A stretch of 64,000 nt of DNA from Croceivirga sp. (GTDB lineage Bacteria; Bacteroidota; Bacteroidia; Flavobacteriales; Flavobacteriaceae), in the NCBI GenBank assembly GCA_028284285.1, contig JANQSA010000056.1:1-64000 (forward strand). Reading direction: 5' to 3'. Each line of letters begins with the position of its first letter. Positions within the stretch are counted from its first letter, which is position 1. The notes beneath the pieces are model-generated. The model was not told where the DNA came from. It saw only the letters and a program-made list of their open reading frames with translations, and searched no databases. Positions 25,099 to 25,612 of the stretch are shown here, piece by piece. The position numbers and the translations under genes are program-made.

Positions 25099-25172
25099 TC
25101 CTCCTTAGCTCAGTTGGTTAGAGCATCTGACTGTTAATCAGAGGGTCGCTGGTTCGAGCCCAGCAGGGGGAG
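25099..25172 (+). tRNA. tRNA-Asn (GTT anticodon)
   Basis: A complete cloverleaf: acceptor strands TCCTCCT and AGGGGGA with discriminator G, D-arm with CAGTTGGTTAGA, anticodon stem TCTGA/TCAGA with anticodon GTT in CTGTTAA, and T-arm CTGG-TTCGAGC-CCAG. CCA is not encoded. A damaged second copy lies at 25492-25564. A hairpin terminator follows 8 bases after the tRNA. Confidence 0.95.
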
Positions 25173-25175
25173 CAA
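25134..25175 (+). repeat. 42-bp direct repeat, copy 1 (tRNA-Asn 3' part)
   Basis: The 3' part of tRNA-Asn, from the anticodon through the T-arm and acceptor strand plus CAA, is repeated without a mismatch at 25526-25567. The copies flank the GIY-YIG ORF. Confidence 0.9.
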
Positions 25176-25178
25176 GAA

Positions 25179-25217
25179 CAAATCCAATACTTCGAAGTGG
25201 TATTGGATTTTTTGTTT
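25179..25217 (+). terminator. intrinsic terminator of tRNA-Asn
   Basis: AATCCAATAC and GTATTGGATT form a 10-base stem around TTCGAAGTG, followed by a T-rich run. It lies directly before the start codon of the GIY-YIG ORF. Confidence 0.75.
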
Positions 25218-25223
25218 TGTAGA

Positions 25224-25529
25224 ATGTTCTATCTCTATATTTTATATTCCGTGGATTATGATAAGTACTATATCGGCAGCAGCCAAGATCCATGGGAAAG
25301 GCTAGTCTGGCATAACGACGGCCAGAAAGACACTTTTACATCAAAATACCGCCCCTGGCAATTGGCAGTCGTTTTTGAGGCAGGTCTTTCGCGAGCGGAG
25401 GCCTTGTATTTTGAGCGTTTCGTCAAGAAACAGAAGAGCCGGATTTTTTTGGAAAAACTGATCGACCCGGATTTTGTGCCGAACGGAAAAATAGCGAAGT
25501 TGGTTAGAGTCCCGCATCTGCGTGATTAA
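25224..25529 (+). CDS. GIY-YIG nuclease-family protein encoded at tRNA-Asn
   Basis: The start is the ATG at 25224 (101 residues); a GTG at 25197 is in the terminator stem. The GIY-YIG core is clear: YLYILYSVDYDKYYIGSS (residues 3-20), then W-x-x-L-V-W-H-N, then a loop and a helix with GLSRAEALYFERFVKKQKSR. Family members of about 80-100 residues cut or nick DNA. The last ten residues (KLVRVPHLRD) and the stop codon are encoded by a degenerate tRNA-Asn copy, including its D-arm (AGTTGGTTAGAG). It lies wholly between the tRNA and this copy. Confidence 0.85.
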   Translation: MFYLYILYSVDYDKYYIGSSQDPWERLVWHNDGQKDTFTSKYRPWQLAVVFEAGLSRAEALYFERFVKKQKSRIFLEKLIDPDFVPNGKIAKLVRVPHLRD

Positions 25530-25564
25530 TCAGAGGGTCGCTGGTTCGAGCCCAGCAGGGGGAG
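25492..25564 (+). pseudogene. degenerate second tRNA-Asn copy
   Basis: From TAGCGAAGTTGGTTAGAG onward this segment follows the tRNA at 25099. It has small insertions around the anticodon stem, and the 3' part (25526-25567) is identical to the real tRNA for 42 bases. The acceptor 5' strand and the anticodon loop are lost, so it cannot be a working tRNA. Its left part is inside the coding sequence of the GIY-YIG protein, and it has its own terminator hairpin. Confidence 0.85.
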
Positions 25565-25567
25565 CAA
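25526..25567 (+). repeat. 42-bp direct repeat, copy 2
   Basis: Identical to 25134-25175. It contains the TAA stop codon of the GIY-YIG ORF. Confidence 0.9.
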
Positions 25568-25612
25568 AAAACAGAAAGCGCTGCACAAAATTGTGGCGCT
25601 TTCTGTTTTTTA
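25566..25612. terminator. intrinsic terminator after the degenerate tRNA copy
   Basis: AAAACAGAAAGCGC and GCGCTTTCTGTTTT form a long stem with A-run and T-run flanks and a loop of about 15 bases. It can act in both directions. Confidence 0.75.

Follow-up and report, generated by a model that had tools for sequence, protein, structure and literature searches.

A GIY-YIG nuclease gene joined to a palindrome-marked tRNA-Asn copy in Croceivirga, and related candidate gene-restoring cassettes at tRNA genes of Bacteroidota

Introduction

Genes for tRNAs are the target of tyrosine-integrase islands, in which the element restores the 3' part of the gene and a displaced partial copy is left behind. 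REP/RAYT systems have a small single-domain transposase gene, encoding a Y1 HUH enzyme, that is bounded by palindromic repeats. HIGLE and SLX1 are structure-specific DNA nucleases; SLX1 has additional domains and a partner, SLX4. We know of no reported tRNA link for UPF0213 proteins.

Among known systems, SegB of T-even phages comes nearest to the locus described here: it is a GIY-YIG homing endonuclease, free-standing, and cleaves within tRNA genes (PMC13096335). In the available part of that paper, cleavage is better at RAWTSGAAC, a motif found at 23 of 83 sites, segB is widely co-located with phage tRNAs with no isotype favoured nearby, and SegB drives tandem tRNA amplification, probably via microhomology between the tRNA 5' end and the segB 3' end (PMC13096335). 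By our own reading, the reverse complement of RAWTSGAAC appears to fit the T-loop consensus. The titles and abstract openings of open-licence PMC papers (preprints excluded), among the matches listed, yielded no description of elements like those reported below, and a prior description elsewhere in the literature is possible.

Here we analysed a stretch of 64,000 nucleotides (hereafter, the window) from Croceivirga sp. (GenBank assembly GCA_028284285.1, contig JANQSA010000056.1), together with related loci in the Flavobacteriaceae and in GTDB species genomes.

Results

Architecture of the locus in the window

An earlier note, made from the letters of the window, had read the order tRNA-Asn, terminator, GIY-YIG ORF, damaged tRNA copy and second terminator. 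This order was borne out by ARAGORN, Rfam, Pfam and the predicted stems:

23641-24996, + strand: upstream protease gene, which from its sequence we take to be rseP-like; outside the element, synteny anchor for the empty site
25099-25173, + strand: intact tRNA-Asn, anticodon GTT (ARAGORN; Rfam tRNA, 68.6 bits)
25180-25217, + strand: predicted first intrinsic terminator, in the tRNA-ORF interval (terminator-like stem at 25180-25210)
25224 (ATG) to 25529 (TAA), + strand: GIY-YIG ORF, 101 codons and stop (ORF list, Pfam)
25492-25566, + strand: 3' partial tRNA-Asn copy, tRNA positions 8-75 (86% identity over 25492-25565)
25510-25525, + strand: 16-bp near-palindrome TCCCGCATCTGCGTGA in the anticodon arm of the partial copy (read from the sequence)
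25566-25611, + strand: predicted second intrinsic terminator, 3' of the partial copy (terminator-like stem)

Five terminator-like sites were found in 24980-25700, against a shuffle mean of 0.9. The ATG of the ORF lies only a few bases behind the T-run of the first terminator, so that the ORF would probably be expressed solely via read-through of this terminator; a GTG in frame with the ORF lies at 25197. The GIY-YIG frame is the only + strand ORF of at least 40 aa between the tRNA and the copy, and a second tRNA-Asn gene was absent among the matches listed for the window's own genome. Two familiar explanations were rejected: an integrase island, given that the tRNA-copy interval contains no integrase gene, and a group I intron, given that the upstream tRNA is uninterrupted and that none of the six Rfam matches in 24900-25800 (E ≤1) is an intron family.

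The main scar of the copy is the exchange of ten bases of the anticodon arm, CATCTGACTG, for TCCCGCATCTGCGTGA, in which six of eight pairs form. The ORF reads on across the D-arm portion of the copy, then across the palindrome; its stop codon, TAA, consists of the remaining anticodon-loop bases. The earlier note had placed the last ten codons of the ORF in the copy; the overlap is there and is longer, about 12-13 codons from 25492. Its run of 42 identical final bases stands as a run, made up of 40 tRNA bases plus two past the tRNA end, and the copy is damaged as described, yet mainly through one change, the swap in the anticodon arm for the near-palindrome.

A conserved, compact GIY-YIG protein

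The ORF belongs to the GIY-YIG superfamily, with the Pfam domain PF01541 (E 3.5e-12, 46.9 bits) above its curated cut-off of 22.6 and the core residues present. Y5, Y16, G18, R26, H30, N31 and E64 were invariant in 23 aligned sequences, and we take Y5, Y16, R26, H30, N31 and E64 to be the core residues of the superfamily. In Pfam (E up to 1) no domain other than GIY-YIG, and no separate DNA-binding domain, was found in the ORF, and an NCBIfam search returned no match. The dN/dS values were 0.09-0.14 in the four of seven pairs that yielded a value, and the protein is, judging by its coding sequence, under purifying selection.

Profile searches matched UPF0213 proteins at E 4e-7 and SLX1 at E 3e-5. 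The AlphaFold model of the ORF product (mean pLDDT 92.6) had its closest fold matches in HIGLE and SLX1 (E about 2e-4), with I-TevI at E 0.93, and the C-terminal tail was modelled as ordered (pLDDT 91, 87 and 70 in the last blocks). The ORF matched no plasmid record and none of 50,697 phage records (tblastn, 1e-3), so that it and SegB are distant at best. IMG/VR contributed one weak match (30%, L248), in whose locus ARAGORN finds no tRNA. Phage or plasmid cargo was rejected on the basis of these searches.

Recurrence beside tRNA genes in the family

The first 87 residues of the ORF were compared with 249 family genomes, giving 26 places in 19 genomes. Many of these adjoin an intact same-strand tRNA-Asn, Phe, Val or Asp (ARAGORN, printed sequences), and some array units among them have no intact tRNA inside the fetched stretch. 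For a census that avoids choice by likeness, we used a Pfam search of 41 family genomes and took the frames of at most 200 aa among the matches listed. An ARAGORN tRNA call lay within 400 bp of 26 of the 92 small GIY-YIG frames so listed (21 sites; tandem copies counted singly), and the call was co-oriented with the frame in 26/26. None of 40 large GIY-YIG genes among the matches listed had a tRNA within 400 bp (Fisher 2.8e-5 versus the small frames), and there was no tRNA anywhere in their loci. These controls were 40 of the 58 larger frames among the matches listed (UvrC- and exonuclease-sized). The 26 include L060, which has just a partial copy that ARAGORN miscalled as tRNA-SeC, and L150, at which no partial copy was seen and a tRNA-Ser lies 197 bp upstream; L150 is labelled unlinked in the tree below.

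BLAST detected a broken tRNA fragment within 320 bp of 18 of the 26 linked frames and no partial copy at the other eight; by eye, fragments were seen at a few more loci, e.g. of tRNA-Leu in L004 and of tRNA-Asn in L166. In two array units the fragment replaces the full tRNA rather than accompanying it. In the window and at those 18 of 26 loci, tRNA and partial tRNA surround the ORF, in the way that target sequence flanks a free-standing homing endonuclease. The tRNA is presumably the target of the nuclease.

The earlier note had suggested testing for a wider group by a search for GIY-YIG ORFs with C-termini at tRNA 3' ends, and a wider group does exist: other GIY-YIG ORFs lie at tRNAs, whole or fragmentary, for Asn, Phe, Val, Asp, Arg, Pro, Leu, Met, fMet and Ala (fMet versus Met being a reading of the sequence), frequently accompanied by a partial copy of their own tRNA. 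Two orders recur. Form A has tRNA, terminator, ORF and 3' fragment (e.g. Asn, Phe, Val, Met, Arg-tct and one Pro-tgg), and form B has 5' fragment, ORF and tRNA (e.g. Leu, several Arg, Pro-ggg and two Asp); both are seen for Asp, Arg and Pro. By inspection, the two look like mirror modes of insertion into a tRNA gene with the gene restored. Many fragments are interrupted in or beside the anticodon or T arm by a palindrome, e.g. TCCCGAATTCACTTCGGGA, CCCCGAAGCTTCGGGG and CCTGTCTGCCGACAGG, and the extent of the fragment varies within the Phe, Pro and Leu groups. Units also occur in tandem, two to five per array (five in G157, three in G026).

Two loci deserve separate mention. In the tRNA-Phe array of L173 (G157:C1 540700-547500), the first unit is apparently split by an insertion sequence, as judged by eye. 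The genome of the window carries what looks like a second gene-restoring GIY-YIG cassette at a tRNA-Leu (caa) gene (L004, G000:C50), where by eye a palindrome-bearing 5' tRNA-Leu fragment is followed by an ORF that runs up to the 5' end of the intact tRNA-Leu.

Protein clades follow the kind of tRNA

A tree was built from 95 of 111 GIY-YIG domains, 11 tandem copies and five frames of <60 residues having been dropped. With tRNA labels assigned manually from the inspected loci, the labels needed 14 changes, compared with 36.2 on average after shuffling (0/200 as low), on a short alignment of 93 columns that leaves many forks unresolved. The 37 linked rows alone, with 10 labels, needed 11 changes (mean of 500 shuffles 26.4, none as low). 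Pro, Phe, fMet and Leu each formed a single group and Asn two separate groups, and Arg, Asp and Val each required more than one change. Linked versus unlinked status changed three times on the 95-domain tree.

Asn-type elements and their palindrome across Bacteroidota

GTDB species genomes were scanned with four Asn-type proteins, giving 50 loci, mostly in Bacteroidota (Flavobacteriales, Cytophagales, Chitinophagales, Sphingobacteriales, Saprospirales and Bacteroidales), with three of the bins labelled outside the phylum. A same-strand tRNA-Asn lay at most 600 bp upstream in 29 loci, and another same-strand tRNA (Ala, Val, Met or Pro) in seven further ones. The remaining 14 had no tRNA within 600 bp; eight of them have <300 bases upstream, and six have room yet no tRNA (L204, L210, L212, L221, L228 and L230). 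A bin labelled Candidatus Gottesmanbacteria (L233; contamination possible) holds a distant GIY-YIG ORF just 5' of a same-strand tRNA-Val.

The tRNA-coded C-terminus proposed for the window is real and recurs across Bacteroidota: LAQLVRVPHxRD, a loose motif coded by the D-arm and the palindrome, was present in 31 of the 50 loci. The window and 30 of these 31 loci were aligned (L219, out of frame, was omitted). Among the 31 aligned palindrome copies (24 distinct rows), 10 cells were altered on both sides against a shuffled mean of 3.5 (0/500), the covariation score was 0.164 against 0.072 (0/500), and 90.6% of cells paired compared with at most 61.9% in slid versions. Two of the five measures were unremarkable, namely the three pairs with a both-side change (a number reached in 59/500 shuffles) and the seven additional pair types (reached in 92/500), and the central pair was often unpaired. 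The middle residue of the tail varied (H, Y, D, K, Q) with pairing maintained. In the six D-arm codons, departures from the tRNA sequence were synonymous in 29 cases and nonsynonymous in 15 (33 sequences that are related and thus non-independent), and a random change in these codons would be synonymous in 11-33%. With the pairing kept and the D-arm codon departures mostly synonymous, the tRNA-derived sequence appears to be held as a palindrome as well as a protein.

The protein tree also clustered by host order (8 changes versus a shuffled mean of about 15.7; 43 rows of at least 75 residues, Asn type and others, 32 of them with an order). Such clustering is expected from old inheritance with loss and likewise from short-range transfer.

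Sites without the ORF in the genus

Much of the family keeps the order rseP then tRNA-Asn. An empty site with a single tRNA-Asn and no repeat had been predicted in relatives. By tblastn, the ORF is missing from the rseP-tRNA-Asn site in 10/10 other genus genomes that the search gave, so that an ORF-less allele, of the kind seen for free-standing homing endonucleases, exists at this site in all ten. In five of them (G164, G257, G251, G253 and G256) there is one tRNA-Asn, with no repeat seen by eye in the printed stretch.

The earlier note had counted a partial copy present without the ORF in relatives against its reading, and this occurs in part. G249 (L069) and G254 (L070) carry a 5' tRNA-Asn fragment with a palindrome and no ORF, G255 (L078) has a weaker trace, and G250 (L081) and G252 (L080) carry ORF-less 3' tRNA-Asn fragments with a different palindrome, the 3' fragments and terminator repeats of G252 being in tandem. 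The extent and palindrome of these copies are unlike those of the window. Such forms could be relics or, alternatively, passengers of nucleases located elsewhere.

A T-stem variant, GCTGG (strict pattern), was found in three of four Asn-type carriers and in eight of 245 others (Fisher 2.5e-4, kinship ignored). The T-stem of the window's tRNA-Asn also occurs in five genus genomes without the ORF (G249, G254, G251, G253 and G256), so that the excess among carriers does not show the variant to be a mark brought by the element, or elements to bring their own 3' half. A count by T-loop pattern (19/29 'lost') was too strict, as three of the 19 still read GTTCGAG. The scarred copy is altered, whereas the restored tRNA of the carrier looks intact. 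Overall, both checks suggested in the earlier note speak for the proposal of a mobile cassette that entered a tRNA gene and restored a functional tRNA, its entry being deduced from the architecture.

Related units away from tRNA genes

One clade (support 98), near the Arg, Leu and fMet groups in the tree, unites three unlinked proteins, each of a different genus:

L113 1501-1713 (G024): epimerase-site ORF
L115 1501-1713 (G040): epimerase-site ORF
L143 1477-1686 (G031): epimerase-site ORF

In each, the truncated first codons of a gene that we take, by motif, to be epimerase-like lie upstream, broken at a Rossmann-like motif (..GGAGF), and an epimerase-like gene with its own start lies downstream (only the beginning of the gene was read). 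The element ends are similar across the three genera. The arrangement reads as form B on a protein-coding target.

For 35 of the 57 unlinked ORFs (including the 3 of epimerase type), the match between left and right flank ranked in the top 2% of flank pairs, and for 43 it ranked in the top 5%. Some flank repeats (L001, L003, L005 and other unlinked ORFs) are inverted palindromes like GTCATTCCTGCGNNGGCAGGAATCT. The palindrome score (at least 9 pairs) showed no excess at unlinked ORFs (11/58 upstream and 13/58 downstream versus 22/103 downstream of controls), and at linked ORFs it was reached in 15/34 and 14/34. The flanks as high-copy REPs failed for L001, the one tested: its repeat has two exact copies, both beside the ORF, and two one-mismatch copies elsewhere in the genome. 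With no excess in the palindrome score and no further exact copies of the L001 repeat, we make no claim of high-copy REPs. The pattern TCCCG-N6-CGGGA occurs at 12 sites in the window's genome (G000, L236-L247), against one for the reversed pattern, and the loci fetched around these 12 dispersed palindromes yielded no tRNA.

Discussion

We interpret these loci as tRNA-specific, gene-restoring minimal homing cassettes driven by an SLX1-like GIY-YIG nuclease, a reading to which we give a probability of about 0.6. GIY-YIG nucleases hydrolyse DNA and, to our knowledge, do not join it, so that a cassette would most simply be gained by a break in the target followed by repair from a donor, that is, by homing. 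The nuclease would be weakly expressed through read-through of the tRNA terminator and would be directed at a single tRNA kind, in this case tRNA-Asn, whose gene it would cleave, probably within the anticodon arm. Repair would draw on a cassette-bearing donor copy, with the 5' half of the broken gene pairing with the donor's intact tRNA and the 3' half with the palindrome-marked 3' copy at the cassette's other end. Filling the gap would then add the tRNA 3' half, the terminator, the nuclease gene and the palindrome, and the outcome would be a whole tRNA, with which the host survives, a nuclease gene and a scarred copy. In the mirror form, the 5' half would be restored instead. The tRNA pieces at both cassette ends could provide homology even across species, the duplication would leave a working tRNA, and recombination between tRNA segments could produce tandem arrays and losses. 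What the sequences show directly is a recurrent architecture that is faithful to tRNA kind, a palindrome that has been retained, a protein under selection and sites lacking the ORF; cleavage and its site, homing or mobility, and the part played by the palindrome are inferred.

Several results argue for homing, namely tRNA linkage in 26/92 small frames versus 0/40 large genes (among the matches listed), broken copies at 18/26, fidelity to tRNA kind, palindrome covariation, low dN/dS, ORF-less sites and tandem arrays of up to five units; the precedent of SegB would count in the same direction by analogy. Others argue against it. The intact tRNA of the carrier should remain a target, and it is possibly spared by tight expression through terminator read-through. 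Pfam finds no separate DNA-binding domain in the protein, whose roughly 100 residues would then have to supply the specificity. Also on this side are the host-order clustering, the ORF-less palindromic copies, the eight of 26 linked frames with no copy, the lack of plasmid or phage matches, and the two of five covariation measures that did not stand out.

The closest solved relatives by sequence and fold, UPF0213 and SLX1/HIGLE, invite an account in which structure directs the enzyme. An SLX1-like protein would act on hairpins or cruciforms, the palindrome itself would be the mobile, recognised part, tRNA arms would be hit as inverted repeats, and the tRNA-linked units would be one branch of a flanking-repeat family, a nuclease counterpart of REP/RAYT. 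The palindromes in the anticodon or T arm of many copies fit this, with Leu (L120) and Arg (L161) resembling clean insertions without loss, as do the mutually matching flanks (top 2%) of 35/57 unlinked ORFs (3 of epimerase type) and the 12 genome sites of TCCCG-N6-CGGGA versus one for the reversed control. However, clade fidelity to tRNA kind would be unexpected if any hairpin sufficed, the palindrome strength at unlinked ORFs is not above that of control flanks, the L001 flank repeat has just two exact genome copies, both adjoining the ORF, and the 12 dispersed palindromes have no tRNA in their loci; we regard this account as unlikely.

The same tRNA-kind fidelity, together with co-orientation, the position behind the tRNA and the compensatory changes in the palindrome, could instead reflect a unit working on RNA, in which the protein cuts or binds tRNA and the co-transcribed scarred copy serves as a decoy, guide or regulator, like a toxin-antitoxin or defence system. 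We consider this improbable, since the nearest proteins of solved structure (SLX1) are nucleases that act on branched DNA, a similar gene-restoring layout is seen at an epimerase-like gene in a clade close to the Arg, Leu and fMet groups, and the Phe, Pro and Leu tRNA fragments are unequal in extent. A passive association, with tRNA flanks that tolerate insertion, a GIY-YIG gene trapped long ago and unequal crossing-over generating copies and arrays, would account for the partial copies and arrays that follow tRNA-Asn without an ORF in the window's genus, and for a protein tree that partly tracks host orders. It is hard to reconcile with one strand in 26/26 frames and no large GIY-YIG gene of 40 at a tRNA (among the matches listed), with ten tRNA kinds, and with an Asn-copy palindrome kept through compensatory change, and it seems very unlikely.

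Beyond the homing reading of the tRNA loci, we would put about even odds on a broader one: that Bacteroidota contain a large undescribed class of mobile, minimal elements that pair one small SLX1-like nuclease gene with a fragment of its target, rebuild lineage-specific targets (a tRNA kind, the start of an epimerase gene or other flanking repeats) and in one lineage have a tRNA-coded C-terminus selected phylum-wide. If the homing reading is true, a nuclease-only element of ~400 bp inhabits an essential tRNA gene by bringing its own repair patch, such a solution has been reached for about ten tRNA kinds, and the many small GIY-YIG genes beside Bacteroidota tRNAs are accounted for as a cellular, tRNA-specific counterpart to phage SegB. 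The Asn type would also be a clean example of tRNA sequence recruited into conserved protein-coding sequence.

Compared with tyrosine-integrase islands, the unit in the window has no integrase and no cargo, encodes a GIY-YIG nuclease of 101 aa and has a palindrome in the displaced copy. It differs from REP/RAYT in having GIY-YIG in place of the Y1 HUH enzyme (the ORF matched GIY-YIG alone in Pfam at E up to 1, with no Y1 HUH transposase), in its sequence-matched tRNA fragments and in the low copy number of the one flank repeat tested (L001). SLX1, HIGLE and UPF0213 are closest in sequence and fold, and the GIY-YIG core residues are retained. In the part of the SegB paper available, no palindrome-marked tRNA copy or gene-restoring layout was found (PMC13096335). 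SegB and the present units share the GIY-YIG domain, an intron-free setting, a place adjoining tRNA genes and tandem tRNA-nuclease units (PMC13096335). In contrast to the phage system as described there, the units reported here lie on chromosomes, span about 400 bp, are sorted by tRNA kind, bear a palindrome and, by their layout, restore the gene.
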